64,000 bases of DNA, taken from positions 62,001-126,000 of the forward strand of contig JAPKAV010000001.1 in NCBI GenBank assembly GCA_028825115.1. Direction: 5' to 3'. The position numbers and the translations under genes are program-made. Source of the stretch: Candidatus Nanopelagicales bacterium. GTDB lineage: Bacteria > Actinomycetota > Actinomycetes > S36-B12. The notes under the pieces were generated by a model that was not told the DNA's origin, made no database searches, and saw nothing but the letters and a program-made list of their open reading frames with translations. Shown here one piece after another: positions 22,330 through 44,558 of this stretch. Each line of letters begins with the position of its first letter. Within the stretch, counting starts at the first letter, position 1.

Positions 22330-24246
22330 TTACAGTCCCAGTAGGTGAGCTTGGCGTTCAAAGTCAGGTGTGCTGGCCCGAACTTCCTCGAAAGTTCCGC
22401 GCGATTCGATCACACCGTGACGCATGAACACCACCTGGTCAGCGAAACGAATTGTTGCTAGTCGGTGCGCAATAGTGATCGTGGTTACCTGACCTTCAAG
22501 TTCACGCAAAGTCTCGGTGATTGCCTGTTCTGTCTCAGCGTCGAGGGCACTTGTTGCCTCGTCGAGCACCAAGAGTCGCGGGCGCGTGTAAAGCGCGCGA
22601 GCGATACCTAAGCGTTGACGTTGCCCACCACTAAGGCGAACTCCACGCTCACCCACAATTGTGTCCAAGCCCTCCCGTGTATCTCTCAAGAAATCAGCTA
22701 AATGTGCGCGTTCCAGAGCTTGCCACACCATTGAGTCTTCAATCGATAAATCAGGGAGACCCAACGCAACATTTTCACGGATTGTTCCCTCGGTGAGTCC
22801 GACGGTCTGGGGTATGTAGGCAACGGCTCCGGGCCAAGTGCTTACCGCTTCACGTGGACTAACTCCGCTAATGGTCACAGATCCCGAATCAGGATCAACT
22901 ACGCCTAAAATCACGTCTGCCAATGTGGACTTACCTGCTCCCGTACTACCGACCAGGGCTAGTGACTTCCCGAGTGAGACGGAAACATTTGCGTCAATAA
23001 CTGCTGGGCGATCTGCACCGGGGTAGGTGACTGATACACCCGACACTTCTACATGAGCGAAAAAATCACCATGTCCGGCAGCGATACGTTCTTTGACCGC
23101 CAATGCTTGTTTCTTAGAAATCCGATTCCCGCGCTCACCACTACCGTCCCGCAACTGGAACCAAAACGCCAATTCGTAAGTTTTGCGGGCCGAGGCGGCC
23201 GCAGAGCGAATTGTAATTCCTGCCCCTTGCAGTCTCAGCAAAGCAGGAATAATTCGGAAACCGGCCGCGAGGAACAGGCCAACAGTCGCTGCTGCAGCGG
23301 CAAGGTCTTTAGTGAGAAATTGAACGATTGCGAGTGTGAAGCCACCAAGTACGAGTGCAGATTCCAAAACGTATTTGGGGATCTCAGCCAGGAAAGAATT
23401 TGTTGCCCCAGCATTTGCTGACTCCCGGGCAAGTCGATCAAATCGATCAACATAAAAATCGCGACGATGCAAAACGGTAGTCTCGCGGTAGGTCGTGAGG
23501 GCTTCTGAAACTGTCGTGATTGTTGACATCCCACGGTTTGCCTGGATAGTTGAGTTCTTTGCGGAGGCACGACCCAACCAGATCTGCAAGAAGTAAACGA
23601 CAAGCGCGAAGAATAATGCCGCGACGATTGTGAGGATCGGGTCAACAATGAGTAGTCCGACACCAATCACAATAAACAGGAAAGACTCAGTGACAATAAT
23701 GAGAGCAGCCGCCAGTAGGCTGGTGATGGCCGCAGACACGCCACCGGTCAATGCGTAAAGCACTTCGGCGGTGCTCCAGCGCTGCACCTCGAGTAGTTGA
23801 CGACTCAAAATAGTGCGGGCCATGCGGGCTGATACGTCGGCTTGTCGGTTGGCGAGGAAATAGAGCATTCGACGAGTGATAAGCGCTGACAAGACGGTTT
23901 TCAAAAGTAAGAGAAAAACGGCAGTAGTAGCAAGTAGGCCAATCAACTGCGAAGCGGTTAACGCACTTAACCCAAAGCGGTCCTTCCATTGGTCCAGCGG
24001 ACCGGGAAGTGCATTGGGATCGATGCCTGAGACAGCCACAGCTCCTATCGCACCTATAAGGGCAATGCCAGCCAAATCCAACACGCTCAGGGACATCTGG
24101 GCAAGGGAAGCGAGGCGAAAAAGTCGGCGATCACGTTTGGTCAGTAATGACAGGGAAGCTCGAACTGATTCAATAACGGTGCGGTCTCGGAGCGCTTGGC
24201 CGGCAGGAGTGCCCGTCACGGGATCGGCGTGAGGTTCCTCACTCAT
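22330..24246 (-). CDS. ABC transporter, fused permease/ATPase (MsbA/PglK-type)
   Basis: Walker A GSTGAGKST; LSGGQRQRLGIARALYTRPRLLVLDEATSALD; six-TM N-terminal region. Confidence 0.93.
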   Translation of the reverse strand: MSEEPHADPVTGTPAGQALRDRTVIESVRASLSLLTKRDRRLFRLASLAQMSLSVLDLAGIALIGAIGAVAVSGIDPNALPGPLDQWKDRFGLSALTASQLIGLLATTAVFLLLLKTVLSALITRRMLYFLANRQADVSARMARTILSRQLLEVQRWSTAEVLYALTGGVSAAITSLLAAALIIVTESFLFIVIGVGLLIVDPILTIVAALFFALVVYFLQIWLGRASAKNSTIQANRGMSTITTVSEALTTYRETTVLHRRDFYVDRFDRLARESANAGATNSFLAEIPKYVLESALVLGGFTLAIVQFLTKDLAAAAATVGLFLAAGFRIIPALLRLQGAGITIRSAAASARKTYELAFWFQLRDGSGERGNRISKKQALAVKERIAAGHGDFFAHVEVSGVSVTYPGADRPAVIDANVSVSLGKSLALVGSTGAGKSTLADVILGVVDPDSGSVTISGVSPREAVSTWPGAVAYIPQTVGLTEGTIRENVALGLPDLSIEDSMVWQALERAHLADFLRDTREGLDTIVGERGVRLSGGQRQRLGIARALYTRPRLLVLDEATSALDAETEQAITETLRELEGQVTTITIAHRLATIRFADQVVFMRHGVIESRGTFEEVRASTPDFERQAHLLGL

Positions 24247-25274
24247 GCAGAACCCAATGAATTGAATTTGGAAATCTGAGCGGCCGTTAGATCTAAGGGA
24301 ATTTTACCAAAATCAGCGTCTTTGTACCAGTCGACCGTCCACTTAACAGCCGAAGCGAAATCAAGTCGGTCGTTCCATCCCAGTTCGCTGCGCGCTCGGG
24401 AAGCGTCAAGTGCTAACAAGCCAGCTTCGTGTGGGTGGTCTCCGCCCACATCTGACCAACTAGCTCCTGATCCCCAATAAGAGGCAGCCAAATCAGCGAC
24501 CTCAGACACGGTCTTAAAACTCTCCTGCCCCGGGCCAAAGTTCCAGTCGACAAATGGCAATGAGTTGGCCAGAGTGCGATCCATCAGCATCATGTATCCT
24601 CGTAGGCAATCAAGGACATGTTGCCAGGGCCGAACCGCTCCTGGGAAACGCAACGGCACCACAGAGCCGGAGGCAAATCCGGCCATTAGGTCTGGCAAGA
24701 GTCTGTCTTTGCACGCGTCTCCCCCGCCAATCACATTTCCCGCTCGAGCAATGCTGATGGGGATGCCAGGGAAACTGGATATCCATGACTGGGTCAAAAT
24801 ATCGGCCATGGCCTTTGAAGCGCTGTAGGGATCGTGACCGCCAAGGGCGTCTCCCTCTGAGTATCCGGCAACCTGATTCACATTGCGGTACACCTTATCC
24901 GTGGTCACAACCACCATGCCCCTGACAGAATCCACAGCCCGAGCAGCATCAATTACGTTCATGGTTCCCACAACATTGGTTTCCATGGTGACCCGAGGAG
25001 CCACATAAGACTCGCGAACTAATGGCTGCGCCGCTAAATGAAAGACAGCATCTGGGCGGACAGCGGCCATGGCCGAGTTCAATGACGCGAAATCGCGGAT
25101 ATCCCCGCGGATGTCTGAGGACAAATGAGCCGGTAATTCGGCTCGCTCAAAGTGAGATCCGGGTTCCGGATCCAACGAATAACCCGAAACCTTGTGACCG
25201 GCAGCACCCAGCATCAGTGTCAACCACGACCCTTTAAAGCCCGAGTGACCAGTTATCAATAAGTGCATACTCAT
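24243..25274 (-). CDS. rfbG: CDP-glucose 4,6-dehydratase
   Basis: LITGHSGFKGSWLTLML; FHLAAQPLVRESY; VVVTTDKVYRN; GHDPYSASKA; GGGDACKDRLLPDLM. Confidence 0.93.
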   Translation of the reverse strand: MSMHLLITGHSGFKGSWLTLMLGAAGHKVSGYSLDPEPGSHFERAELPAHLSSDIRGDIRDFASLNSAMAAVRPDAVFHLAAQPLVRESYVAPRVTMETNVVGTMNVIDAARAVDSVRGMVVVTTDKVYRNVNQVAGYSEGDALGGHDPYSASKAMADILTQSWISSFPGIPISIARAGNVIGGGDACKDRLLPDLMAGFASGSVVPLRFPGAVRPWQHVLDCLRGYMMLMDRTLANSLPFVDWNFGPGQESFKTVSEVADLAASYWGSGASWSDVGGDHPHEAGLLALDASRARSELGWNDRLDFASAVKWTVDWYKDADFGKIPLDLTAAQISKFNSLGSA

Positions 25275-25301
25275 AAGTCTAGGGGGAGTGAATCAGGGCC
25301 C

Positions 25302-26654
25302 CTACGCCTTGACGGCAGGGTTCTCCACAAATTCTTTAATGCTGTGGGCAATGTAGGCCAACATTGGCTCGGTCAAACCTGGATAAACCCCCACCCAGAA
25401 TGTCCGTCGCATCACAATGTCCGTGTTGGTGAGGTCTCCGACCACTCGAGCTTCAACACCCTGGTAGGCCGGTTGGCGCAAGATATTTCCAGCAAACATC
25501 AGTCGCGTGCCGATCTTGCGGGCGTCCAGGAAACGCATGAGCGCTTCTCGATCCACGTCAAGCTCGGGGTCCAAGGTGATGGGGAAACCGAACCAAGAAG
25601 GCTCAGAATGCTCAGTTGCCTGCGGCATGATCAGCCCGGAAACCCCCGAGAGTTTGGCATACAAGGAATCGAAGTTTTTCTTCCGAGCGGCTACAAATCC
25701 ATCGAGTTTCTTGAGCTGCGACAGACCCAGCGCCGCCTGCATGTCGGTGGCCTTGAGGTTGTAACCTATGTGACTGTAGATGTATTTGTGATCGTAGCCT
25801 TCCGGCAATTCACCCAGTTGCCATTCAAACCGCTTCAAACAGGTGTTGTCACACCCGGTTTCGCAGTAGCAGTCTCTGCCCCAATCACGGAAAGACTCAA
25901 TTTGCTTTGCTACTAACGGTGATTTGAAGAACACTGCACCACCTTCACCGGTCGTAATGTGGTGAGCAGGATAGAAGCTCGCTGTCGCGGTGTCACCGAA
26001 ACTTCCGGTGCGCTTTCCCCGATACTCGGAGCCCAGGGCGTCGCAGGAGTCTTCAATCAACCACAGACCGTGCTCTTTGCAGAGTTCCTGCACGGTATCT
26101 AAATCAAAAGGATTACCCAGTGCGTGCGCCATCATGATTGCACGGGTCTTAGGACCAACAGCCTCCCGCAGTCGATCCGCGATAGCGTCGTAGGTGCCTA
26201 AATTGACGTCCACCATGACCGGCTTCAAACCGTTCTGAATAATTGGATTGATCGTTGTCGGGAAACCCATAGCGACTGTCAGCACTTCGTCTCCTGGCTG
26301 TAAAGCCTTCTTACCCAACTTCGGGCTCGTCAATGCACTCAGCGCCACCAAATTCGCACTTGACCCACTGTTCACCATCAAAGCCCCACGAGAACCAACG
26401 TATCTGGCCAACTCGCGCTGGAACTGCTCGTGGAACCGACCAGCGGTCAACCACCCGTCCAAACTCGAGTCCACCAATGCAACCAAGTCTTCGGGGGCCA
26501 GTACTTTGCCGGACACCGGAACAACGGATTCCCCGGGAACAAATTCGCTGGTTTTCAGAGATTTTGAGGCGAATTTTGACACCAAGTCGAGAATTTCTAC
26601 TCGTGAAGAATCAAGTTCATCCAGGGGTTTAGATTGAGTCCCTTTTTTTGCCAC
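25302..26654 (-). CDS. rfbH: CDP-4-keto-6-deoxyglucose-3-dehydratase (RfbH/AscC-type)
   Basis: [58 protein letters not shown] (RfbH-type Cys cluster); [16 protein letters not shown] (His replacing PLP Lys). Confidence 0.95.
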
Positions 26655-26780
26655 TAGGGAAGCATAACGATTCTTCCACGCGTCACAACTCAGGTATCGC
26701 CCATGTAGCGCTATTGTTGAAGTGCAAATAAGGCCACAGCCAACAACAAAACCGCCACGCTGAGAACAAAGGATCAGAGT

Positions 26781-27569
26781 TTGCTTAATAGTGTCCTGCA
26801 GTCAATAGCACGACAATTCGGCTATGTCGTCATGTTCAAAGCGCTCCCTGATAAACCAGAGATGGAAATGCAAGGTTCAAAACTTGACTACGAGTATTTG
26901 GACCGCACAGCAACCTTGATTCAAGAATTCACCGGAACAACCCCGACTAATTTTTGTGAAGTGGGTGCGAATTTCGCCCAAGACGCTGCTTATTTGGCCG
27001 CTAAGTGGCAAATACGCCCCGAAAATATAGTGGTTTTTGAACCGCACCCCGATATTGTGGAAAAGATACGGGGCCACTACGACTTTGTAGTGGTACCAAA
27101 GGCTGTTTCAAACGTCAACAAGAAAATGCAATTCAACGCAGTAAAACTGGAAAACACCTCGAATAGTGGTATCTCTTCTCTGCGTCCTCACACGCTCAAT
27201 AACGTAGACGATAATGACTTAATAGAAGTGGAGGTTATCCGACTTGACGAATTTGCAGCAAAAAATGGCTTGAACAAAATTGATTTTCTTAAGATTGATG
27301 TTGAGGGATTAACTTTTGAAGTTTTGGAAGGACTAGGTGACTTCCTAAAAAATGTAAGTTGCATTCAAATAGAAACCGAATTCATTACAGTCTGGGAAGA
27401 TCAGCACACTCAGTTGGATGTCTATAAGTTACTGGAAGAGAATCACTTCCAGTTAATTGATCACTTAACTCAAATGGATGGTGTGCAAGCAGATTCACTG
27501 TGGATCCGCGAAGATCTCGTAGTACATAAAATCTATGATCTTAGTAATAAGCAATGGGTGAATAAGTAA
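26781..27569 (+). CDS. FkbM family methyltransferase
   Basis: [53 protein letters not shown]. Confidence 0.88.
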
Positions 27570-27633
27570 TGATTGACCCGCAGCGACACTGAGCAAAAGC
27601 GATAAGAAGGCTGTCGTAACACGAAGGAGTTCA

Positions 27634-28413
27634 ATGAAAGCCGTTTTACTAGCAGGTGGCCTGGGTACCCGCATCCGTGAGGAAAGCGAATTTCGCCCGA
27701 AACCCATGGTTGAAATTGGTGGGCGTCCAATTCTTTGGCATATCATGAAGCATCTAGCCAGTTTCGGTATAAAGGAATTTGTTATTGCTACTGGTTATAA
27801 GAGCAACATGATTAAGGAATATTTTCTTAATTATGAACCCTTGGGTAACGACTTCAGCATTTCACTGGGGGATCGCAATTCACTTCAAATTCATAGTGAG
27901 CACGACGAATCTGACTGGAATGTCACCGTTGCTTTCACGGGGGAAAAAACAGAGACGGGTGGACGGGTTTTCAAGGCAGCGAAGTACTTGGATCCGAATG
28001 AAGATTTCTTCTTGACTTATGGTGACGGGCTAGCCAATGTTGATATTGACGCATTACGTAAGCGACATGAGGAGTCAGGGAAGCAGGCAACGATTACAAC
28101 GGTGCAGCCAACAAGTCGCTTCGGTGTTATTAACCTAGATAACAACGGAGATGTCACTGCTTTTAAGGAAAAACCCAAGCTTGAAGGTTGGATAAATATT
28201 GGATTCATGATCTTGAACCCCAAGACTCTTGACTACTTCACCGACGACTGTGTACTCGAGTCAGGACCCCTTGCATCACTTGCACAAGACAACAAGCTGA
28301 GTTCTTTTAAGCATGAAGGTTTTTGGCAACCCATGGACACATTACGTGAATCAAAAATCCTTAATGATTTTTGGGAGAGCGGCGAAAAACCGTGGCTCAA
28401 AAAATCCAATTAG
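27634..28413 (+). CDS. rfbF: Glucose-1-phosphate cytidylyltransferase
   Basis: MKAVLLAGGLGTRIREESEFRPKPMVEIGGRPILWHIMKHLASFGIKEFVIATGYKSNMIKEYF. Confidence 0.96.
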   Translation: MKAVLLAGGLGTRIREESEFRPKPMVEIGGRPILWHIMKHLASFGIKEFVIATGYKSNMIKEYFLNYEPLGNDFSISLGDRNSLQIHSEHDESDWNVTVAFTGEKTETGGRVFKAAKYLDPNEDFFLTYGDGLANVDIDALRKRHEESGKQATITTVQPTSRFGVINLDNNGDVTAFKEKPKLEGWINIGFMILNPKTLDYFTDDCVLESGPLASLAQDNKLSSFKHEGFWQPMDTLRESKILNDFWESGEKPWLKKSN

Positions 28414-29330
28414 TTCCATCTCGGAACTGTTACCAAGGAGTCAAAAAGTCGTTTTATTCCCTCTGCCAGTGGGATAGGAGCGAACCTGTGGTTTCGTTCC
28501 TGCCAACTTGACTTCATGCGTAAATCTCGTGGTTGAAGCTTGGTTGATTCCAAGTAAGCCAAACTTATTGGCACCTTGCGGCGGGTAACATTGGTAACCG
28601 TTTTTATTACTTCACCTACCGAACTGTTCTCCCCAGAGCCAATGAGTGACAGCGACAGGCCAGACGCTGCAGTGGCAGATTCAAGTAGCAATAATTCAGC
28701 GGCGTCACTCACATAGATGTAGTCACGAACAGTGTCTAGTGGGACATAAATCTGAAGAGCCTTGCGAGTCGCAGCGGCAGTACACATTCGATTTATCAGT
28801 CCTTGACGTGGCCCAGGCCAGGGCCCGTACAGGTTGGTAATTCGGGCAATGTGAACATCAAACAGGGTTGCAAGTTCAGTTTTCATCATTGATTCAATGG
28901 CAATTTTGTTGGAACCATATTTGTTGCTAGCGGCAACAGGTGTTGCAATTGAAAACGGAGGATTTTTTGATGCGCTGTAAACACCTCCAGCACTTGAGCA
29001 AAGGACTACGCGAGCACCATGTAAGGAGCGGGCTGAGGAAATGGAGTGAACAAAATCGGTGAAGGATTCAACTTCCCCTTCCTGCTCTCGCTGCCCTACC
29101 CCGTCAGCTCCTGCTGCCCAAACAAGGGTCGGCCCACTATTAGCTGAAAATTCCCCAAACGCTCCCGCAAGTTGGGTCAGAGCACCTAATCGCTGTGCGG
29201 GTTCATTCCATGGGATTGAATTCGCTTCGAAAACGGAATAGCCATTGAGATTGGCGCTGCGTGCGATCGCATTTCCGAGAAAACCACCCTGACCCAATAT
29301 CCACAAGGGCCTGCGGCCTGAGCCTTGCAA
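28410..29330 (-). CDS. NAD-dependent epimerase/dehydratase (extended SDR)
   Basis: GQGGFLGNAIARSA; YGSNKIAIESMM; DYIYVSDAAELLLLES. Confidence 0.8.
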   Translation of the reverse strand: MQGSGRRPLWILGQGGFLGNAIARSANLNGYSVFEANSIPWNEPAQRLGALTQLAGAFGEFSANSGPTLVWAAGADGVGQREQEGEVESFTDFVHSISSARSLHGARVVLCSSAGGVYSASKNPPFSIATPVAASNKYGSNKIAIESMMKTELATLFDVHIARITNLYGPWPGPRQGLINRMCTAAATRKALQIYVPLDTVRDYIYVSDAAELLLLESATAASGLSLSLIGSGENSSVGEVIKTVTNVTRRKVPISLAYLESTKLQPRDLRMKSSWQERNHRFAPIPLAEGIKRLFDSLVTVPRWN

Positions 29331-29336
29331 GGTGTT

Positions 29337-30362
29337 CTAGTTTCTTGTCGCAGGATTTTGTGGGAAATGTTTGGTCGGATCTTCCACCACGACGTAAAGA
29401 GGCTTACCAAGTGACATATTTACAGCCGTTCGCAAGTATTGGGCAATAACTCCCAGTGAAAGCAAGGTGAGTCCACCAACAACAAGTGTCGCGACAAAGC
29501 TTGAAGTCCAACCTTGGGGAATGGAATCGGTGAAAAATCTCTGGAATAAGACCCAAACGGTAAAAATAATGCCAAGCATAAAGAAAACGAAGCCGATAAC
29601 GGAAACAATCACCAGCGGACGAGTCCCGGAAGAGATCACAAGCCGACCAAAATGGGCTAGTAGTTTCTTGAATGAATAATTACTTGCCTCACGTCCTTCA
29701 GATCGCATGGGAACTGGAGAAGTGGAACTTGTTGCTACGACCCATGACAGTGCCACGTCCAGATAAACCCCAGGCCCGGTGTAGGCGGCGGTTCCACGTG
29801 CTACCTCGCCGAGCATTAGTCGGTAGCTGTGGAACTGATCGATTTCACTTTCACCAACCAGTCGCTTAAACATCCAGCGGGCGCTAGCTGAACCCACGTT
29901 GCGCAAAAATCCGTGAGGTCGCCCATTTGTGGGAGCCGCGTAGACCAACTGCACCTGGTTCTTCAGTGCGCAGTCAAGGAGTTGTCCAATGTACGCCGGA
30001 TCGTGCTGACCGTCTTCATCCAATGTGACAACCCATTCGCCCGAGGTTGAAGACATACCGGCCAGAGTCGCTGCATGTTGACCAAAGTTGCGAGAAAGCC
30101 AGATTGGGCGCACCCACGAGTAAGCGGTCTCCAGTTCTCGCAATACGGCTGCAGATTGGGAGGAGCCGCCGTCCCATACGAGTAGGACTTCAGAAACGGC
30201 AAAGGAATTGCCGTCAGGAGTACGCACTACTTCTGTGAGGGTCTCGATTTCGGCCAGCAGAGCCGGCAAGGTCGCTCCACCGCTGTAGACGGGGACAACA
30301 ACACTGACCGCGTGGGTTTTTTGATTGAGCGAATCAACATTTCGCCCGGCGCTCTCACTCAC
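29337..30362 (-). CDS. Family 2 glycosyltransferase, polyprenyl-phosphate type (GtrB/ArnC-like)
   Basis: SVVVPVYSGGATLPALLAEIETL; VVTLDEDGQHDPAYI; C-terminal two-TM region. Confidence 0.88.
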   Translation of the reverse strand: MSESAGRNVDSLNQKTHAVSVVVPVYSGGATLPALLAEIETLTEVVRTPDGNSFAVSEVLLVWDGGSSQSAAVLRELETAYSWVRPIWLSRNFGQHAATLAGMSSTSGEWVVTLDEDGQHDPAYIGQLLDCALKNQVQLVYAAPTNGRPHGFLRNVGSASARWMFKRLVGESEIDQFHSYRLMLGEVARGTAAYTGPGVYLDVALSWVVATSSTSPVPMRSEGREASNYSFKKLLAHFGRLVISSGTRPLVIVSVIGFVFFMLGIIFTVWVLFQRFFTDSIPQGWTSSFVATLVVGGLTLLSLGVIAQYLRTAVNMSLGKPLYVVVEDPTKHFPQNPATRN

Positions 30363-30450
30363 AGGAACACCTTAGCGTCCCAATTCAAGTGAAATGAACA
30401 GCTGCATTGATATCCAAAAGTAAGTGCCAGTTAGCCAATAGGATTAAGGT

Positions 30451-31020
30451 ATGGATCAAATCTGGCAGGAACAGGTGATTCCTGGCCTTTACACCGTAGG
30501 AATGGACCCCTTAGAGGACTCACGAGGCGCATTTCACAAGATTCTAGCCCAGGCACCCGCAGGGTGCGATCCTTTGCTATTTGACGAGATCTACTGGTCA
30601 AACTCACAGGTGGGTGTGGCCCGAGGAATGCACTTTCAAGTGCCACCCCACCATGGCCGAAAGCTCGTCTTTGCCACGAGTGGTGAGGTTCTAGATCTAG
30701 TTATTGACCTTCGAGTGGGAAGCCCAACATTTCACCACCTTTGGGAGAAGCAATTAAGTCCCAGGTCGCAAGGAGTTCTCCTACCTACTGGCTGTGCTCA
30801 CGGCTTTCTGGTGACTAAATCCCCAGCGACCCTTGTCTATGCCCAAGAGGGTGCCTACGACAAGGCCTGCGACACGGGAGTGAGCCTTAAATCTCTGAAG
30901 ATCAGCCAAAGCGTAGATGCCCTTGAACTTTCAGAGCGCGACGAAGCATTGCTCCAACTCGCTGACTTCGCCTCTCCGTTTGTGTTTGATCCATCAAAGT
31001 ACGTGGGGTGGAACGAGTAG
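30451..31020 (+). CDS. dTDP-4-dehydrorhamnose 3,5-epimerase (RmlC)-family sugar epimerase
   Basis: DSRGAFHKIL; RGMHFQVPPHHGRKLVFATSGEVLDLVIDLR; PTGCAHGFLV. Confidence 0.88.
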   Translation: MDQIWQEQVIPGLYTVGMDPLEDSRGAFHKILAQAPAGCDPLLFDEIYWSNSQVGVARGMHFQVPPHHGRKLVFATSGEVLDLVIDLRVGSPTFHHLWEKQLSPRSQGVLLPTGCAHGFLVTKSPATLVYAQEGAYDKACDTGVSLKSLKISQSVDALELSERDEALLQLADFASPFVFDPSKYVGWNE

Positions 31021-31928
31021 AGATGACTGCTAATGATTCACAAACGTGGCGTAACAAAAAAGTTCTCGTCTCGGGTGCTACGGGTTTTATTGGTGCACGG
31101 GTTGCGGATTCATTGGCGCAACAGGGAGCACTCGTCACGGCACTTACTCGAATCAAACCCGCAAACGAAGTCCTCAACTGGATTGAGGTACCAGACTCAG
31201 CACTGTTTCCCAGCACTGAAGTCGAAGGCGAAAAACCCGAAGTCGTATTTCACTTGGCCACTCGGTTTCAAGCAACGCATGGCCCCAGTGACATAACCGC
31301 GCTGATCCAAAGCAATATCGAGTTTGGAGCGCAACTTCTCGAGTCAACCAAGAAATTGGGCGCAGAATTCGTCAATGTGAGTTCCGCGTGGCAACACTTC
31401 GAAGGAAAGCCCTATTCACCAGTTTCGCTCTACGCTGCAACCAAACAAGCATTTGCAGACATTGCTCTTTACTACTCGGAAACTGGTCTGGATTTTCGAG
31501 ACCTGGCAATTTATGACACTTATGGACCAACAGATCAACGAAATAAACTGATCCGCTTACTCCTGCAGGCAGCCAGTTCTGGTAACCCAATTGACATGGG
31601 TGAAGGAAACCAACTGATCAACCTTCTTTACATCTCAGATGTAGTGAAAGCGATCCTACAAATCGCCCAGGCCCCATCGGAGTCAAATCCAGGTGCCCAC
31701 AATTTCGTCGCTCGCGCTGAGCAATCAATTTCAATTAAGGAGCTAGCTCAAAGAATTGAACAAGTGACTGGCAAAACCATCAATGCCAATTGGGGTGCCC
31801 GCCCGCAGCGACCACGGGAAATGTTGACGGATTGGCAATTTGGACATGCTTTACCGGACTGGAGGCAAGAAGTCTCACTGAAAGAAGGTCTGACCCAATG
31901 TTGGCAGGTGCTCCATAGTGACTCCTAA
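31008..31928 (+). CDS. NAD-dependent epimerase/reductase (extended SDR; AscF/RfbJ-like candidate)
   Basis: VLVSGATGFIGARVADSL; SLYAATKQAF; LLYISDVVKAIL; overlaps the upstream epimerase ORF. Confidence 0.82.
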   Translation: MERVEMTANDSQTWRNKKVLVSGATGFIGARVADSLAQQGALVTALTRIKPANEVLNWIEVPDSALFPSTEVEGEKPEVVFHLATRFQATHGPSDITALIQSNIEFGAQLLESTKKLGAEFVNVSSAWQHFEGKPYSPVSLYAATKQAFADIALYYSETGLDFRDLAIYDTYGPTDQRNKLIRLLLQAASSGNPIDMGEGNQLINLLYISDVVKAILQIAQAPSESNPGAHNFVARAEQSISIKELAQRIEQVTGKTINANWGARPQRPREMLTDWQFGHALPDWRQEVSLKEGLTQCWQVLHSDS

Positions 31929-36330: not shown

Positions 36331-37053
36331 ATGTCCGTGACATTGTGCATAACCGCGTTCAACGAGCACGAAAATCTTTATGATTTAATCAAGGACTTGA
36401 CTTGGTTGCATGCTCAACAAATTGGTTTACAAGTTGTAATCGTCGATAATGGATCAACAGATGACACTTGGAGAACGTTGCAGGTTCAGTCTTTGGAGCA
36501 TGGGGAATGGCTTTCCATCGTTCGTCTGGGCGAAAATCGAGGATATGGTGGCGGGCTCCGGTCCGCTATTGAAGCGGCAGGTACGGAGACGGTTGCCCTA
36601 CTCTCTGCCGACCGTCAGTATCCGATTGAGGATGTCCTACAAGCAATCCGCGAGTTTCAATCCAGTGCTCAGGAAGAGAGTTCACGATTGATACTCGTTG
36701 GGAATCGCAAGGAAAGATACGACCCCAAATCTGCGAAATTTGTTAGCTGGTTTTACTCAAGAACAGTCAGATTGCTTTTGGGTACCGAACTGATGGATGT
36801 GAATAGTCAACCAAAAATATTTGGGCGCGAATTGTTAACTCAAAAAATTCCGTGGTCAGATTCCTTTTTTTTCGACGCCCAGTTGATTGCAGTTGCGCAA
36901 CAGCTTAATTTTAAACTTATTTCTTCTCCCGTTAGATTTGTCAATCGCAGGTACGGTAAAAGCTCGTGGAGTGGCCAACGTATAAAGGTGTACCGTGAGA
37001 CTCTTATTGAGATGTGGGGCTTTCGAAAATATCTGAACAAGATAGATTTATAA
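36331..37053 (+). CDS. Family 2 glycosyltransferase (DPM1-like)
   Basis: SVTLCITAFNEHENLYDLIKDL; VVIVDNGSTDDTW; LLSADRQYPIEDV. Confidence 0.9.
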   Translation: MSVTLCITAFNEHENLYDLIKDLTWLHAQQIGLQVVIVDNGSTDDTWRTLQVQSLEHGEWLSIVRLGENRGYGGGLRSAIEAAGTETVALLSADRQYPIEDVLQAIREFQSSAQEESSRLILVGNRKERYDPKSAKFVSWFYSRTVRLLLGTELMDVNSQPKIFGRELLTQKIPWSDSFFFDAQLIAVAQQLNFKLISSPVRFVNRRYGKSSWSGQRIKVYRETLIEMWGFRKYLNKIDL

Positions 37054-37054
37054 A

Positions 37055-39064
37055 ATGAGAGATCAGATAGATGAGTTAGACACTGACTCAACGGTGAGAT
37101 TGGAAAAGAGATTTTTTCTCTATGCCATCGTAATATTTTTACTGATGGTAACCCTAATTCCATGGCTCTACACCACCCTTGGAGGATTTCCTTCGGCCGG
37201 ACCAGATGAAGTTTCTAGTGCCCACGCGGCCCAAATATACTTGAACGTTAATCAACCTTCCCCGATTATCACGCCTGAAAATATCAAGCTCGTGGAACTA
37301 CCCGTCACTGAAAAATTTAATGCTCCAACACCGTTTGGTCAACTTGCATCAGGATCGTTAGCCCTTGTCGTCAAAGTCTTGATTCTGGTCGGTTTATCTG
37401 TGGCCCTCATTTCGTTAATTCCAAGGATCGCAAGAAAAAGATTAATGAGAGAAACCTGGGGGTGGCGGTTAACCCTTTCGTCCTGGATTTTATTTGGCGG
37501 GGCTAGCCTCATGGCTTTGGTTATTTCTATTCCGATGATGATTTGGGACGAGGCCTACGTTTTTGCCAGTGCCGCAAGGAACTTCGCGGAATCCGGGGTA
37601 CCTGGTGTTTTAATCACCGGACCAAGAGGTGTCGCTGAGAGTTCCGTTGATCTGTTGGTAATACTGGTTGCAGGCTTAATTAAAATAATTTTCAGGGTCA
37701 TAGAGGCCGACACATCCTTGATGATTTCTGCAATTTTATTGAGTTCTGTGGCATCGCTGATTGTTGCAGTCATAGCAAGAAACAAATTCGGATCCAGTCG
37801 CACCGTAAGTATCGGAATGGCTGTCATCTTGCTTCTAACCCCAGCGACTATCTCAACCTTATCGGGAGGAATGCCGACGGTAATTGGAACTGTTGCCTGG
37901 CCAATTTTGGGTCTGACGTTATATCTTGCGCTTTCTACGAAGTCGTACACTCCGCTTGTATTGACTTCAGTAGCCCTGCTTTTTGTTCGCTGGGACATGG
38001 GAACAATCGCTGTGGTGACTTGTGGAGTAATGCTCGCAGTTAAACTATTACGGCGACGCAAGCAGCAGACCAACGACGAGACATTGGATGCCAAATTTTC
38101 CTGGATTCTCTTGGTTCCGGTTGCCATTTTCGGAGCGGTGACGCTCATCAGGTTCGCCTTTTTTGGAAGTTTGGTTCCTTCGGGGCTGTTGGGAAAGAGT
38201 GTGGGAATTGATGGTGCATATTTGCAAAGTGGCGTGTCGTATTTTCGAGAGACACTCTTAGAAACTTTGTGGCTATTAGTCGTTTTAGTAATGGTGGCCG
38301 CTACTTTGATTTATTTGAAAAGCGACAGTAAGCGTCATTATGTCTTATCACTCGTAGTGGTTTCAATCCCGGCAATGGCCTACCTCCCGGGAGGAAGGGA
38401 TTGGTTCCCCACATTTTGGTCCCGCTACACGCTACCTAGTGTCGCGGCAGTACTGATTTTATCTCTTGCGCTACTCTCAAGTTCGACTTGGACAAGAAAA
38501 GCTACGAGGAAAACATGGGTGGGTTTGGTCACAATTTTGTTTGCCGTGCAAATTCCCGGCACGCTAGGCATCGTTCAAGGCTTGAACAAAGACAAGTCGG
38601 GAGTTTATCGAGTCGAATGTCTGGCTCAAGCGGGACAAAGCCTTCGCCGAGCCTTCCCTGATTTGACGAGCGTGGCTTCACCTGAAGTGAATACGGTTGC
38701 CTACTACGCCGATGCCCACTTGACTGATTTGATTGGAATTGTCGATCCACGGACGGCCTCAGTGCCAAAGTCCCCACTTGCTCCTGGCGATCCCATTCAC
38801 AGGCGAGCAAATCCAGACATAATCGCGACGGATCAGCCAGACGCGATTTATCTCTACGAAGGAGCGGACTGTATTACACCAAATACGAGTCTCGAAGACG
38901 AGGTGACCGCTTGGAATGAACTTCTCGGTTCAGATCTCAGTCGGTTCCGTGCAGGGAATTTAAACTCACTACTGGTGAATTACCAGCCAGTTACAATTCG
39001 GATCCCAGATCGGGTCGCCGTGCGTTTTCTGGTGAAAAATGATCTCGTTCAGAACCTGCCATGA
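37055..39064 (+). CDS. Large polytopic membrane protein (GT-C-like)
   Basis: 669 aa; FPSAGPDEVSSAHAAQIYLN; multiple TM segments. Confidence 0.58.
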   Translation: MRDQIDELDTDSTVRLEKRFFLYAIVIFLLMVTLIPWLYTTLGGFPSAGPDEVSSAHAAQIYLNVNQPSPIITPENIKLVELPVTEKFNAPTPFGQLASGSLALVVKVLILVGLSVALISLIPRIARKRLMRETWGWRLTLSSWILFGGASLMALVISIPMMIWDEAYVFASAARNFAESGVPGVLITGPRGVAESSVDLLVILVAGLIKIIFRVIEADTSLMISAILLSSVASLIVAVIARNKFGSSRTVSIGMAVILLLTPATISTLSGGMPTVIGTVAWPILGLTLYLALSTKSYTPLVLTSVALLFVRWDMGTIAVVTCGVMLAVKLLRRRKQQTNDETLDAKFSWILLVPVAIFGAVTLIRFAFFGSLVPSGLLGKSVGIDGAYLQSGVSYFRETLLETLWLLVVLVMVAATLIYLKSDSKRHYVLSLVVVSIPAMAYLPGGRDWFPTFWSRYTLPSVAAVLILSLALLSSSTWTRKATRKTWVGLVTILFAVQIPGTLGIVQGLNKDKSGVYRVECLAQAGQSLRRAFPDLTSVASPEVNTVAYYADAHLTDLIGIVDPRTASVPKSPLAPGDPIHRRANPDIIATDQPDAIYLYEGADCITPNTSLEDEVTAWNELLGSDLSRFRAGNLNSLLVNYQPVTIRIPDRVAVRFLVKNDLVQNLP

Positions 39065-39720
39065 GCAAGTTAATGCGGAACAACCAAAGGGTTCTGGCAC
39101 ATAGGGGCCTGTGGAATGAGTCAAGATCTCAAAATTCGATGGATGCGATTTCGGCCGCACTTGATTCGGGCTTTGGAATTGAAATTGACATCAGAGAATG
39201 GTCTGGTGAGTTGGTTCTTTCACACGGTTTCCCAAATAAGAGAAGCACGACATTCCAGCCGAAGCATCCTGTGTGGGAAAAACTGACCGAGGACACCCCG
39301 TTAGCCCTCAATATTAAGACTGATGGGCTTGGGGTCAAATTAGAAAGTTGTTTGAAAGATTTACCCCAACATAACGGATTCACTTTTGATATGTCTCTGC
39401 CGGAAGCCGTTTTTTATAATTCTTTGAATATTCCCATTGCCCAACGAGTGAGTGAGTATGAACCTATTAATCTGTCACGTGCCGCCTTTCGGGACGCATG
39501 GAGTCGGATTTGGCTCGACTGCTTTCATAGTGATTGGTGGCTTCATGCCAACGATTTTTCGGAGTCATTGAAAGGAAATCAAGTCTTTGTGGTGTCTCCA
39601 GAGCTTCATGGCAGGGATCCACAGAAAGTGTGGGACTGGTGCCAGCAGGAGCTTGAACAAGAATTAGACATCTATATATGCACTGACTATCCAGAAAAGG
39701 TGGCGGAGCAGTGGAGTTAG
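39061..39720 (+). CDS. Glycerophosphodiester phosphodiesterase-like protein
   Basis: RVLAHRGLWNESRSQNSMDAISAALDSGFGIEIDIREWSGELVLSHGFP: HRG, EIDI and H motifs of the GDPD TIM barrel. Confidence 0.72.
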   Translation: MSKLMRNNQRVLAHRGLWNESRSQNSMDAISAALDSGFGIEIDIREWSGELVLSHGFPNKRSTTFQPKHPVWEKLTEDTPLALNIKTDGLGVKLESCLKDLPQHNGFTFDMSLPEAVFYNSLNIPIAQRVSEYEPINLSRAAFRDAWSRIWLDCFHSDWWLHANDFSESLKGNQVFVVSPELHGRDPQKVWDWCQQELEQELDIYICTDYPEKVAEQWS

Positions 39721-40349
39721 ATAAACATAGCGGGTATCTGGCTGTTATTTTTGATATGGACGGCGTTCTCGTTGATGCCCGCGACTGGCACTATCGAGCG
39801 TTAAATGACGCACTCGAAATTTTTGACGCAAGAATTGACAGTGAAGAACATGAGGAACGCTTCAATGGTTTGCCAACTCGTGTGAAACTGCAAATGCTGA
39901 CAGAGGAGGGGCGAATCCCAGCCCATCTCCACACGTTGATTGATGAAGTGAAGCAGGAGCGAACATTGAGAGAGGCGGCTCAAAGGTGCTTTCCTAGGGT
40001 TGAGCATCTGTTAATGATGGAATGGCTGAGGCGCCGAGATATTAAAGTGGGATTAGCAACGAATTCAATCCGTCGGACAACTATGACAATGTTGGATTTT
40101 GCCGGTTTGACGGGCTACATCGACGTCGTATTGACCAATGAAGATGTGAAGCAAGCGAAACCTTCACCGGAAATCTACATTGAGTGTGCACAGCGGCTCG
40201 GAGTATCCCCGAGCCAGTCCTTGGTGGTCGAGGACAGTGAATACGGGGTTGAGTCGGCTACTCGGGCAGGGTGCACCGTTATTGCAGTGAGTGGAGTAGA
40301 AGATGTATCCGAAGAACTACTGCGACCTTACTTGGAGCAAATAAGATGA
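39711..40349 (+). CDS. HAD-family hydrolase (beta-phosphoglucomutase-like)
   Basis: VIFDMDGVLVDARDWHYRALNDAL; GLATNSIRRT; KPSPEIYIECAQRLGVSPSQSLVVEDSEYGVESATRAGC. Confidence 0.92.
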   Translation: MELDKHSGYLAVIFDMDGVLVDARDWHYRALNDALEIFDARIDSEEHEERFNGLPTRVKLQMLTEEGRIPAHLHTLIDEVKQERTLREAAQRCFPRVEHLLMMEWLRRRDIKVGLATNSIRRTTMTMLDFAGLTGYIDVVLTNEDVKQAKPSPEIYIECAQRLGVSPSQSLVVEDSEYGVESATRAGCTVIAVSGVEDVSEELLRPYLEQIR

Positions 40350-41086
40350 GTGTGCAACACGTTCAATCAGTAATCACCGCTGCTGGAGATTCGCGTCCGC
40401 TCTTTCTTCCAAGCGGTTTCGGTTCACCGAAAGGTTTGGTTCTATGGCATGACCAAGAAGTGATTATCAATGCCCTCGAGAGTTACGTGATTAATCTCGA
40501 CCGTGCTTGCGTCGCGGTGCACAAGGAGGAGGACACTGAGTGGGGGATCTCGAGCGTGATCTCGAGAAAGTTTCCAGCGGTCCGAATAGTCAAGATCCGC
40601 CCTGGAACCTTGGGGGCCCTCGCTTCGGCTCTGGTTGCAATGGAAGGCGTGGACCCTGACATCCCACTCGTGGTGGCGGCAGGGGATTCAGTTGTCAAGG
40701 GCGGGATTTCCGGCCAGATTAAAAAATTTCAAGCCATGAATGTGGATGCTGCCACGATCGCATTTCAATCACAGAATCCGCGCTGGTCCTACCTTTCTGT
40801 TGACCCCTATGGCGCAGTGCGCCAAGTTCAAGAGAAAAGAGTTATTGGCCCCCTCGCGACAACTGGCGTATTCTACTTTCGAACGGCAAGACAGTTTCTG
40901 TCCGCTGCTCAGTGGGTTTTGGTGAATAATGCCATGAACAATGGTGTTTATTATGTATCAACTACTCTCAATTACATGATCTCGCAGGGTTTAAATGTTT
41001 ACTACAGCACCATCCCTCGAGACCAATATGCATCTTTTTCTCTTCCGTCAGATTTTCGACCTGAAAGGACTGACTCCCTTGATTAA
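40346..41086 (+). CDS. Divergent sugar nucleotidyltransferase-like protein
   Basis: ITAAGDSRPLFLPSGFGSPKGLV (divergent signature); VVAAGDSVVKGG; WSYLSVDPYGAVRQVQEKRVI aligns with the 41402 paralogue. Start at internal Met MSVQHV. Confidence 0.7.
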   Translation: MSVQHVQSVITAAGDSRPLFLPSGFGSPKGLVLWHDQEVIINALESYVINLDRACVAVHKEEDTEWGISSVISRKFPAVRIVKIRPGTLGALASALVAMEGVDPDIPLVVAAGDSVVKGGISGQIKKFQAMNVDAATIAFQSQNPRWSYLSVDPYGAVRQVQEKRVIGPLATTGVFYFRTARQFLSAAQWVLVNNAMNNGVYYVSTTLNYMISQGLNVYYSTIPRDQYASFSLPSDFRPERTDSLD

Positions 41087-41405
41087 GTCAAACTTGAATA
41101 AATTTCCTAAAGGCTGGTTTCTGGGAAATTTTGAGCCCTCCATGCTGAGGAACAGCGACTTCGAGGTCGCGGTAAAGCGCATGAAAGCGGGTACACGTGA
41201 ACCAATGCATTACCAAAAGGAGGCGGTTGAATTCACCGTTGTGATTTCAGGTAGATGCATATTAGGAGGAATTGAATGCAACCCTGATGACATTTTGCAA
41301 ATCGATCCTTGGGAAGCCGCTGAATTTGAGGCACTTGAGGATTGTGTATTACTGGCAGTAAAGTCACCCAGCATGCCGGCTGACAAGGTGGAAGGCAGCC
41401 CATGA
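41028..41405 (+). CDS. Cupin-fold protein
   Basis: GTREPMHYQKEAVEFTVVISGRCILGGIECNPDDILQIDPWEAAEFEALEDCVLLAVKSPS; start uncertain. Confidence 0.6.
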   Translation: MHLFLFRQIFDLKGLTPLIKSNLNKFPKGWFLGNFEPSMLRNSDFEVAVKRMKAGTREPMHYQKEAVEFTVVISGRCILGGIECNPDDILQIDPWEAAEFEALEDCVLLAVKSPSMPADKVEGSP

Positions 41406-42193
41406 GTAAGTTCCTCGGCAATCGAAGCATTCAAATCGTTCTTCCCATGGCGGGGTTGGGAACTCGGTTCGCTGAGGCTGGATACCAGGTCGCGAAGCCC
41501 TTACTCCCAATTCACGATCAACCCATGTTCAAGGTCGTGCTGGGAAACGTTCTTTCTCCGCAGGTAAAAAGGGTTGTGATTATTAGTCGTTTAGAGTGGA
41601 ATTTGACTTCAGAAATTGAGGAACTCAATAGCAATAGCGACATTGATTTTAAGCTGGTAGAAATAGATTACACGACAGAAGGCCCTGCTGACACCGTGGT
41701 GTTAGCAGCCCCCCATCTGGAACTTGACCTACCTGTTGTCACGGCGAATTCTGATCAGTACGTGTGCACGGCCATCAGTGATTTCTTTAGCGCCCTTCTC
41801 GCAGAGGGTGTCGCTGGCACGATCATGACCATGGAAGATGATGACCCCAAGTGGTCGTTTGTTCAAGTAGATTCCCGTGGAGACGTGGTCAACGTTCGAG
41901 AAAAAGAAGTGATTTCCCATCAGGCGACAGTCGGCATTTATGGATTCACAACCGCCTCAGTCTTGCTAGAGAGCATCAACAAAATGAAATTAGAAGGTGA
42001 CCGTGTAAATGGGGAATTTTACATCGCCCCCGTCTACAACTACATGATTCGCGACGGTCAAAGAGTCACCACATTCGAGACGGGGCCTGTCGAAGACGTG
42101 ATGTTTGGATTAGGTATCCCACAAGACTATGAAAATTTTATACGCCACCCAGAGTCAAAAGCGGCAGCCGTTTCGGTCAAATCTTTACATTGA
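41402..42193 (+). CDS. Sugar/polyol-phosphate nucleotidyltransferase
   Basis: IQIVLPMAGLGTRFAEAGYQVAKPLLPIHDQPMFKVVL; NSDQYV; GEFYIAPVYNYMI. Confidence 0.85.
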   Translation: MSKFLGNRSIQIVLPMAGLGTRFAEAGYQVAKPLLPIHDQPMFKVVLGNVLSPQVKRVVIISRLEWNLTSEIEELNSNSDIDFKLVEIDYTTEGPADTVVLAAPHLELDLPVVTANSDQYVCTAISDFFSALLAEGVAGTIMTMEDDDPKWSFVQVDSRGDVVNVREKEVISHQATVGIYGFTTASVLLESINKMKLEGDRVNGEFYIAPVYNYMIRDGQRVTTFETGPVEDVMFGLGIPQDYENFIRHPESKAAAVSVKSLH

Positions 42194-42214: not shown

Positions 42215-43798
42215 ATGGGGAGAAAAAAACTCGCTTCCGTTACGGCACTGAGTCTTTTGCTGCTGGGAATTGTATGGGCGTTTGCATCACCGCGCGGCTC
42301 TTCAGCGGATGAGGGATCCCATTTAACAAACACTTGGTGTGCCTGGGGTAACTCGGACTTGTGTCAAATTGGACCAGAGGCGGGGGTCATACTCGTGCCC
42401 GATTCCATCGCTAATTCAGCATGTTTTACCCTCTGGCCATCTCAGAACGGCGCTGGATGCCTCAAGGATTTGAGCATGGACCTCGTGCAGGTTGGACCAA
42501 CAATTAGAATTGTACCGGACGTCTATTCACTCGGTTTTTTCAAAACAATGAGAGTGTTCGCGGGAGAAAACATCGAAATCTCCGTGCAAATTATGCGGAC
42601 TTTCAACGTATTTCTCGCCAGTTTACTACTTCTTTGGGCTTTGCTTACAACAACAGGCCCTATTGCGCGCGCATTGGCCATTTCGTGGGGCGTGGCCATA
42701 ATCCCAATCGGAATCTTTTTCATCGCATCAGTGAATCCGAGCTCATGGGTAATTCTGGGGGTTGGTACTTTTTGGGCTTTCTTGGCCTCTGCCCTTGGAC
42801 CGGGAAAGAAAACCAAGACCCAACTATGGAGCCTGTGGCTCGGAGTAGCCGCAAGTTTCATCATTGCCACACTGGGGAGAAGCGATGCCGGTATTTACCT
42901 AACCGCGACCATGGGAGCAATTCTAATATGGCGGTGGAAGTCATTCAAGATAACGGCGTCTCGAAGGACGGCGTTTATTTTTCTTGGGGGCCTCGTAGCC
43001 ATCGCCGTAGCCGCCACTCAGCTGCTCAGTAGATACAGTCAGGCTCAATTTTCTTTCCCGGGAGCTCAAACTTCTACTGATCAGCCCGTGCCACTTATAA
43101 AGAGTTTTCTTGAATGGCCCTCATTTCTGTACAGTCTTTTTGGTGGACAGTCGGCGAAGTTTGTAATCTCTGATTCAGAAGCTGCTCGTGGTCTAGACGG
43201 GTATCGGCCTTCTGGTTACCTTTTCGGCGTGGGCTGGACCGAATTCCCCCTCCCGTCACTAGTTGGCTTACTGATTGGTGCTGCCGTATTCGGCACTGTA
43301 GTCATCGGCTTTACAAGATATTCAAAGCCACGAGTGCTCGCGGTCACATTCCTCGTCCTTGCATTTGTGGCTCAAGTTGTGCTGATGCGAGCCAGCGTAG
43401 ACTTCGGGAGAGCAATCCTGCAGCCACGCTACTTCTTCCCTTATGCGCTGGTCATCCTAGGGCTCACGGCAACAATTTCCGTTAAGCGCGGTCACTTTTT
43501 CTCAAGGGTTCAACTTCTCTTAAGTTCAATCCCTATCTTAATTTCTGGATCGCTAGCTTGGCTTGCAACTGCAACTCGCTATGCGGTAAGTCCATCCGCG
43601 GCATATACAAACTTCGGTCAGCCATTGGATTGGTGGTGGGATTTCGGCCCCGGAAGACTCACATGGTTTATGGTCGTGATACTCGCATCAGGCCTATGGG
43701 TGGCCGTCACACTCGGACTTTGGGGATGCAGTTCTTCAATGCGTGATCGTGATGGCAGCGAAAATACCGCCAATAAGAAAAGGGGATCTTTTCTCTAA
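42215..43798 (+). CDS. DUF2142-like polytopic membrane protein
   Basis: SPRGSSADEGSHLTNTWCAWG; FIASVNPSSWVILGV; many TM segments. Confidence 0.75.
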   Translation: MGRKKLASVTALSLLLLGIVWAFASPRGSSADEGSHLTNTWCAWGNSDLCQIGPEAGVILVPDSIANSACFTLWPSQNGAGCLKDLSMDLVQVGPTIRIVPDVYSLGFFKTMRVFAGENIEISVQIMRTFNVFLASLLLLWALLTTTGPIARALAISWGVAIIPIGIFFIASVNPSSWVILGVGTFWAFLASALGPGKKTKTQLWSLWLGVAASFIIATLGRSDAGIYLTATMGAILIWRWKSFKITASRRTAFIFLGGLVAIAVAATQLLSRYSQAQFSFPGAQTSTDQPVPLIKSFLEWPSFLYSLFGGQSAKFVISDSEAARGLDGYRPSGYLFGVGWTEFPLPSLVGLLIGAAVFGTVVIGFTRYSKPRVLAVTFLVLAFVAQVVLMRASVDFGRAILQPRYFFPYALVILGLTATISVKRGHFFSRVQLLLSSIPILISGSLAWLATATRYAVSPSAAYTNFGQPLDWWWDFGPGRLTWFMVVILASGLWVAVTLGLWGCSSSMRDRDGSENTANKKRGSFL

Positions 43799-44029: not shown

Positions 44030-44558
44030 CGAGCATGGGAAAATGCATTGCCTTCAACACGCATGATCGCTGATGCGTATGTGAGGCATGTGATCCGAGC
44101 GACGAAGGGCACCACGAAAGGCTTGCGCGGGCGGCGGAAAATGACACCCCTTCTTCAACGCACCGGTCTCGCGGTGAGCATTGGAACCATTGATCAGCTT
44201 ATGCGCGTTAAGGGCTTAAGCGGTGTTTTGCGCGGTAAGGATCATCGATGTACTTTCACGCAAGACTGCGAGTTGGCACGGCATGACGGCCAGACCAACC
44301 GAACTCGTGACGGTTCCCTTTACGCATGGCGCTATGGAATCGCAGTCATGAAGGCACTAACATTCTCCACGCTTTTCCCCATCATTCTGATACTGGGTCT
44401 TAATACTTTTTCCTGAAATTTTCCGAAAAACTCACGCTCGAAGGAATCTTGGCCTCATTTGGAAGTGTCTGGGATGCCCACGCTAATTCCCTAACCGAAT
44501 CCACAATCGGCTTATTCAAAATCGAAGCAATGAGACATAGAAATCCATTCCATAAGTG
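44030..44558 (+). pseudogene. Degenerate IS3-family transposase (orfB) remnant
   Basis: LPSTRMIADAYVRHVIRATKGTTKGLRGRRKMTPLLQRTGLAVSIGTIDQLMRVKGLSGVLRGKDHRCT; then in other frames PLRMALWNRSHEGT, HHSDTGS*YFFLKFSEKLTLEGILASFGSVWDAHANSLTESTIGLFKIEAMRHRNPF. In-frame stop, frameshifts and missing core. Confidence 0.85.

Follow-up and report, generated by a model that had tools for sequence, protein, structure and literature searches.

A conserved five-gene cassette predicted to make an activated sugar for surface glycans, in a Candidatus Nanopelagicales bacterium and other bacteria, with a reduced version in phages

A compact cassette of five genes occupies positions 39061-42193 of a 64,000-nucleotide stretch of DNA (the window) from a Candidatus Nanopelagicales bacterium (contig JAPKAV010000001.1, positions 62,001 to 126,000). 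All are on the + strand and encode, in order, a protein of 219 aa with the fold of glycerophosphodiester phosphodiesterases (GDPD-like; 39061..39720), a HAD protein of the beta-phosphoglucomutase/sugar-phosphatase type (212 aa; 39711..40349), a divergent nucleotidyltransferase (NT1, 246 aa; 40346..41086), a small cupin (108 aa; 41079..41405) and a predicted canonical sugar-1-phosphate nucleotidyltransferase (NT2, 263 aa; 41402..42193). The five open reading frames (ORFs) are intact and overlap one another. The ATG of the GDPD-like gene at 39061 overlaps the stop codon of the upstream gene (ATGA), the HAD gene begins with GTG at 39711 within a 10-nt overlap with the end of the GDPD-like gene, and the ATG codons of NT1 (40346) and NT2 (41402) overlap the stops of the HAD and cupin genes (ATGA). 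The start of the cupin was corrected from 40995 to a TTG at 41079 preceded by GAAAGGA, since relatives aligned with it begin about 28 residues downstream of 40995; the corrected gene overlaps NT1 by 8 nt. A previous sequence-only reading of this DNA had described five overlapping or nearly overlapping genes forming one coupled unit, with a cupin between two nucleotidyltransferases, and apart from the start of the cupin this description stands.

The five genes constitute one real, ancient conserved unit. Genome contigs were scanned with the GDPD-like protein as the only anchor, the other four genes not being selected for; 275 relatives were obtained and the best 80 loci (designated here by L numbers) were examined, 63 of them with full flanks. 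Among these 63 loci the HAD gene is present in 61, NT1 in 59, NT2 in 60 and the cupin in 53, all five genes occur together in 50, and the combination of HAD, NT1 and NT2 with either the cupin or a third nucleotidyltransferase-like protein (NT3, see below) in 57, a co-occurrence far beyond chance. Pairwise distance matrices of the five proteins from 60 loci are correlated for all ten gene pairs (r 0.65-0.83, each p 0.001, Mantel test), a further sign of a single unit. The sequence-only reading had named a lack of conserved co-occurrence, or the absence of the cupin or the divergent nucleotidyltransferase from most homologous loci, as evidence that would speak against its proposal, and these frequencies dispose of both. 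The order found in the window (GDPD-HAD-NT1-cupin-NT2) is kept in 25 of the 63 loci and the order GDPD-HAD-NT1-NT2-cupin in 13; tblastn searches of plasmids revealed the window's order in Ruegeria and Roseinatronobacter, with a WavE gene after the cassette. Culturable environmental bacteria such as Ruegeria (L018) and Algibacter (L029) are among the carriers of all five genes.

The hosts span about a dozen phyla and the cassette lies mostly in surface-glycan loci. As labelled, they include Pseudomonadota, Campylobacterota, Bacteroidota, Bacillota, Cyanobacteriota, Planctomycetota, Elusimicrobia, Nitrospira, Armatimonadota-type, Spirochaetes, Margulisbacteria, Verrucomicrobia-type and Desulfuromonadales, the set being incomplete on part of the contigs (in the Armatimonadota-type contig, the GDPD gene alone). 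WavE accompanies 32 of the 63 loci, and glycosyltransferases (GTs), epimerases, O-antigen ligase and ABC exporters are also found as neighbours. The cassette is rare (among 321 genomes of one class the anchor genome was the sole carrier) and one query returned no carriers in E. coli.

NT1 and NT2 fall into separate deep clades of 76 and 82 sequences, with NT3 as a third clade (n=11), and their sequences mark them as ancient paralogues, as had been suggested. The signatures pointed out in the sequence-only reading are also borne out: NT2 of the window shows AGLGTR...K and NSDQ and matches the Pfam family NTP_transferase (3e-9) and the structure 4evw (E 5.8e-17), whereas NT1 shows AAGDSR...PK with a changed metal region (AAGDS) and falls below the Pfam cut-offs. 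The phosphate-binding G-x-G-x-R loop expected of a nucleotidyltransferase occurs in 82/82 members of the NT2 clade, together with the metal Asp and the Glu-Lys pair, and in 0/76 of the NT1 clade; residues G18, G20, R22, K32, N116, D118, Q119, E167 and K168 of NT2 are invariant in all 82 sequences. NT2 is predicted to be the catalytic sugar-1-phosphate nucleotidyltransferase. NT1 is best read as its conserved pseudo-nucleotidyltransferase partner, possibly with binding and regulatory functions, because the two proteins are fused in nine loci (mostly alphaproteobacterial as labelled; one such fusion is L078 11413-12936). A comparable arrangement is that of GMPPA/GMPPB, in which a degenerate paralogue is paired with the active GDP-mannose pyrophosphorylase (PMC11228364), and these proteins are fold matches of the NT1-NT2 fusion; NT1 and NT2 are, however, much shorter (246-263 aa) and are encoded in a bacterial operon that also holds the GDPD, HAD and cupin genes, with the fusions as the sole sign of pairing. 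The best sequence match of both NT1 and NT2, and the best fold match of the fusion, is 4evw, a nucleoside-diphosphate-sugar pyrophosphorylase of Vibrio cholerae (PF00483 group); NT1 differs from it in the loss of the signature loop, and this structural-genomics entry names neither the sugar nor a cassette. In Scandinavium the HAD gene is coupled to an ORF of 141 aa (L014:8264-8686) that is likely a shrunken NT1 (weak profile match, 5e-4).

The cupin of the window is below the Pfam cut-offs and belongs to a cassette-specific family, represented by a single copy, that of the cassette, in 17 of the 18 genomes with a match and by two copies in the remaining one. The site of the family consists of two His and one Glu, the usual last metal His (motif 2) being replaced by Phe83 in 68/68 sequences; the second His of motif 1, G(x)5HxH(x)4E(x)6G, is present in 66/68, and the window copy reads HYQ. 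Among 73 loci with both NT1 and NT2, the 11 that encode NT3 all lack the cupin (L013, L017, L020, L022, L023, L037, L047, L048, L078, L083 and L089) and 59 of the 62 without NT3 have it (Fisher test 1e-10, uncorrected for phylogeny), on which grounds NT3, itself devoid of GxGxR, appears to take the cupin's place. Eight loci, among them L027:10720-11052 and L038:10340-10687, have a SnoaL/NTF2-like gene that adjoins the cupin or sits between NT1 and the cupin; in a ninth (L052:11243-12325) it is fused to NT1.

The GDPD-like protein of the window has no match in Pfam, yet a profile comparison relates it to GDPDs in the PDB (E 1.6e-6) and its AlphaFold2 (AF2) model (predicted local distance difference test, pLDDT, 93.8) is a TIM barrel that Foldseek aligns with the GDPDs 1o1z, 1zcc and 4oec (template modelling scores 0.65-0.70). 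It shares with 1o1z and 1zcc the HRG, E-x-D, H and K residues: H14, R15, E41, D43, H55 and K86, all found in the window protein, are kept by at least 95% of 87 relatives. It differs from them in the third metal-ligand Glu (E-x-K), in whose place stands Asn84, invariant in 61 sequences (its register to NIEIK of 1o1z rests on a weak HMMER stretch), and in the C-terminal pocket, which holds new conserved residues (VSPELH and W191). Of the five proteins, the HAD protein shows the strongest conservation (mean identity 62%); it matches HAD_2 (8e-35) with the whole D-x-D-G-V/Lys/Glu-Asp set conserved (D15, D17, K150, E174, D175). Its nearest relatives are a sugar phosphatase and beta-phosphoglucomutases, either type fitting equally here; it shares the DxD, Lys and Glu-Asp motifs and an equivalent of His20 with such enzymes (1lvh, 3kbb), but its cap loop GLPT-x-KL is unlike both, and it scores below the cut-offs of the listed NCBIfam equivalogs (96 bits versus 189.4 for beta-phosphoglucomutase).

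A version of the cassette occurs in large phages. Three proteins of the window match PHROG families annotated as of unknown function, in which the five-gene unit is not described (cupin, 24762, 3.5e-27; GDPD, 35688, 2.9e-23; NT, 3980, 6.6e-51), and these matches led to viral contigs, 471 of which encode the cupin family. In the best 80 of them (IMG/VR loci L126-L205), NT2 lies within 4.5 kb in 63, is fused to HAD in 22, and a short GDPD-like ORF (mostly 140-160 aa) lies within 4.5 kb in 51; H, R, E, D and H are kept in 49/49 aligned short GDPDs. The phage GDPDs were found with profiles and cupin anchors, tblastn with bacterial queries giving one weak match or none. NT1 was detected in none of the 80. 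Parts of the phage version are truly viral, since isolated cyanophages carry them: Synechococcus phage S-CAM9 (NC_031922) has the HAD-NT2 fusion, and in Synechococcus phage Bellamy (NC_047838) a stretch of about 7 kb within a glycan gene island encodes an NT-containing protein adjoining the cupin, a double NT protein and a short GDPD. The full set of HAD-NT2, cupin and GDPD was seen in no single isolate and is represented by metagenomic contigs (for example L127 and L131). In the phage form NT1 is naturally deleted; the core seems to consist of HAD, NT2, cupin and GDPD, with NT1 as a bacterial addition. The proposal of the sequence-only reading that the divergent nucleotidyltransferase is a special subunit thus holds as regards its conservation, and a regulatory or partner role is plausible; neither NT1 nor the cupin is strictly essential, given the phages without the former and the 11 loci with NT3 for the latter.

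The unit in the window extends beyond the five genes, and the transcript may be correspondingly longer. Two + strand genes run straight into the cassette, a family 2 glycosyltransferase (GT2; 36331..37053) that resembles the polyprenyl-phosphate sugar synthases ArnC (2.5e-7) and dolichol-phosphate mannose synthase (3.4e-7) and is a probable partner using the cassette product, and a GT-C-like membrane protein of 669 aa with about 12 transmembrane segments, also a probable partner (37055..39064; 4-nt overlap with the cassette start). A DUF2142 membrane protein (42215..43798, + strand; Pfam 2.6e-19) follows after 21 nt, and with this spacing may belong to the same transcript; it has no homologue at other cassette loci. 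Promoter and terminator counts are at chance level. GT2 homologues adjoin the cassette in L048, L049 and L086, and in L048 a GT-C-like homologue (25% over 515 aa) does so on the opposite strand. WavE (PF07507) is absent from the window, and a scan of the genome was also empty, its positive controls being silent too. The GT2 and the GT-C-like protein could replace a WavE transferase, acting through a polyprenyl-phosphate sugar. A recurrent protein of 570-600 aa lies near the cassette in L014, L016, L021, L023 and L069, with an alignment that hints at a GT2-like domain and, for the L069 copy, no Pfam family above cut-off.

The cassette as a whole probably makes a nucleotide-activated building block for a glycan of the cell surface, most likely a sugar or sugar-phosphate, with NT1 as partner of NT2. 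This reading builds on the co-conservation of the genes, the signatures of NT1 and NT2, the NT1-NT2 and HAD-NT2 fusions, the glycan context and the folds. We infer the following order of steps. The HAD protein would prepare or remove a sugar phosphate, NT2 would activate it as the catalytic nucleotidyltransferase, and NT1, itself non-catalytic, would be to NT2 what GMPPA is to GMPPB, a partner or regulator; the GDPD-like enzyme may make or break a phosphodiester, with either the activated sugar or a sugar phosphodiester as its substrate, and the cupin may act on or bind a sugar intermediate. In the window, the GT2 would load the product on polyprenyl phosphate and the GT-C-like protein would pass it to the outside glycan, a place that WavE-type transferases would take in many Gram-negatives. 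The glycan context proposed in the sequence-only reading is supported, while neither its phospho-polyol product nor attachment by the set itself finds support; WavE is missing, and the upstream GT2 and GT-C-like proteins would perform the attachment.

Several observations weigh against this interpretation. The NT1 clade keeps Lys29 (82%), the metal Asp114 (74%) and Glu163-Lys164 (99%), so that ligand binding or an altered activity may persist, and NT1 of the window departs from the clade consensus at several otherwise conserved sites, as does its cupin with Gln46 where 97% of the family has His. An AlphaFold model of the NT1-NT2 fusion reached a predicted template modelling score (pTM) of 0.54, with no usable interface. 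The correlation of the distance matrices reflects shared host phylogeny in part. Some rhizobia (L112) carry the module with no adjoining glycan genes, which makes a soluble product possible. We know of no activity measurement on any member of the cassette.

Among the alternatives, the one that survives best assigns a synthetic role to the GDPD-like protein, which would resemble AvrBs2/agrocinopine synthase and convert the nucleoside diphosphate (NDP)-sugar of NT2 into a sugar phosphodiester (free, cyclic or on a glycan) as the end product. Such a role has a precedent in the GDPD-derived synthetase that converts UDP-galactose to a sugar phosphodiester and so shows that the GDPD fold can take an NDP-sugar as donor (PMC12807533). 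It would fit the family's retention of the acid-base residues and two metal residues with an invariant Asn as third ligand, the new pocket residues, the nearly constant linkage of the GDPD gene to a nucleotidyltransferase gene and the rhizobial modules that stand alone with no adjoining transferase. The family is short (219 aa), however, the extra motif of the AvrBs2 family is not established in it, and its sequence and fold matches are ordinary hydrolytic GDPDs; the synthase, compared by its published description only, is not reported in NT-HAD-cupin cassettes. This alternative is a real possibility, though not the expected outcome. A more far-reaching scheme, common to many phyla and to large phages, in which the pseudo-nucleotidyltransferase controls the active one and a GDPD-derived enzyme turns the NDP-sugar into a phosphodiester-containing surface glycan, is put forward tentatively and with some doubt.

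It is unlikely that NT1 has an activity of its own, as a nucleotidyltransferase or as a GT-A transferase of different chemistry, and that the cassette makes two activated sugars. The retained Lys, Asp and Glu-Lys residues would agree with it and so would the presence of NT1 in 59/63 loci, a high figure for a scaffold; the GxGxR loop is nonetheless absent in 76/76 sequences, and NT1 appears dispensable, judging from the shortened Scandinavium remnant and its absence in phages and a few bacteria. Still less likely is a role confined to salvage, with sugar phosphates recovered from glycerophosphodiesters or from glycan turnover, the GDPD releasing them, the HAD protein dephosphorylating or isomerising them and NT2 re-activating them: a GDPD fold with hydrolase residues followed by HAD is a natural order for salvage, and the wide availability of glycerophosphodiesters might fit the wide host range, but the neighbouring genes are for glycan synthesis, with none conspicuous for uptake, and phages carry the cassette inside glycan gene islands. 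That the window copy is a decaying, non-working relic, as the below-average identity to the family of all five of its proteins, the unusual residues in NT1 and at Gln46 of the cupin and a transposase-like fragment downstream (44048-44416) might suggest, is very improbable in view of the five open frames, the clean coupled junctions and the intact catalytic residues of GDPD, HAD and NT2.

With respect to known systems, the predicted production of a nucleotide-activated sugar within a surface-glycan locus places the cassette among nucleotide-sugar cassettes of a known kind; its composition, with a pseudo-nucleotidyltransferase, a GDPD-like enzyme and a phage version, is new. The sequence-only reading knew of no named pathway with this set, and none was found in Pfam, NCBIfam or the open papers searched (subscription literature being outside the scope). 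BcbE of the Pasteurella capsule, a name that also appears in a Vibrio paper, is at most a candidate relative. The wide spread and fixed composition of a unit with no assigned reaction suggest a glycan building block that is probably not yet tied to genes. The natural NT1-NT2 fusions and the natural deletions in phages offer a bacterial model of control by a pseudo-nucleotidyltransferase, and surface-glycan loci in many genomes could gain annotation beyond 'glycosyltransferase family 2' or 'hypothetical protein'.

The cassette was probably acquired laterally by its host, because it is absent from congeners, the contig is genuine and the host is actinobacterial. Searches with NT1 in 146 relatives, and with the GDPD-like protein (single protein and profile) in 397 genomes of the phylum and 166 of the order, gave weak partial matches only and no other cassette. 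Contamination of the metagenome-assembled genome was considered and rejected, as identity to congeners reaches 94-96% at the start of the contig and three WhiB genes were found in the genome.

On a Rhizobium plasmid, the region that precedes the cassette (L013:657-6157) encodes a carbohydrate kinase, glycerol-3-phosphate dehydrogenase, triose-phosphate isomerase and RpiB; a link to erythritol suggested by the seemingly erythritol-type genes of L013 is probably due to chance, these being absent from L078, L089, L111, L112 and L113. In the window, the short ORF downstream of the cassette at 44048-44416 owes its look of a transposase fragment to an HTH_21 match (E 2e-5, below cut-off). Further genes for surface polysaccharides lie elsewhere in the window (glycosyltransferases, sugar dehydratases, epimerases, a DegT aminotransferase, methyltransferases and an ABC transporter), among them, at 24243-31928, genes resembling a deoxysugar pathway: a 4,6-dehydratase (24243), the DegT aminotransferase (25302), a nucleotidyltransferase (27634), epimerases (28410 and 31008) and an RmlC-like protein (30451).

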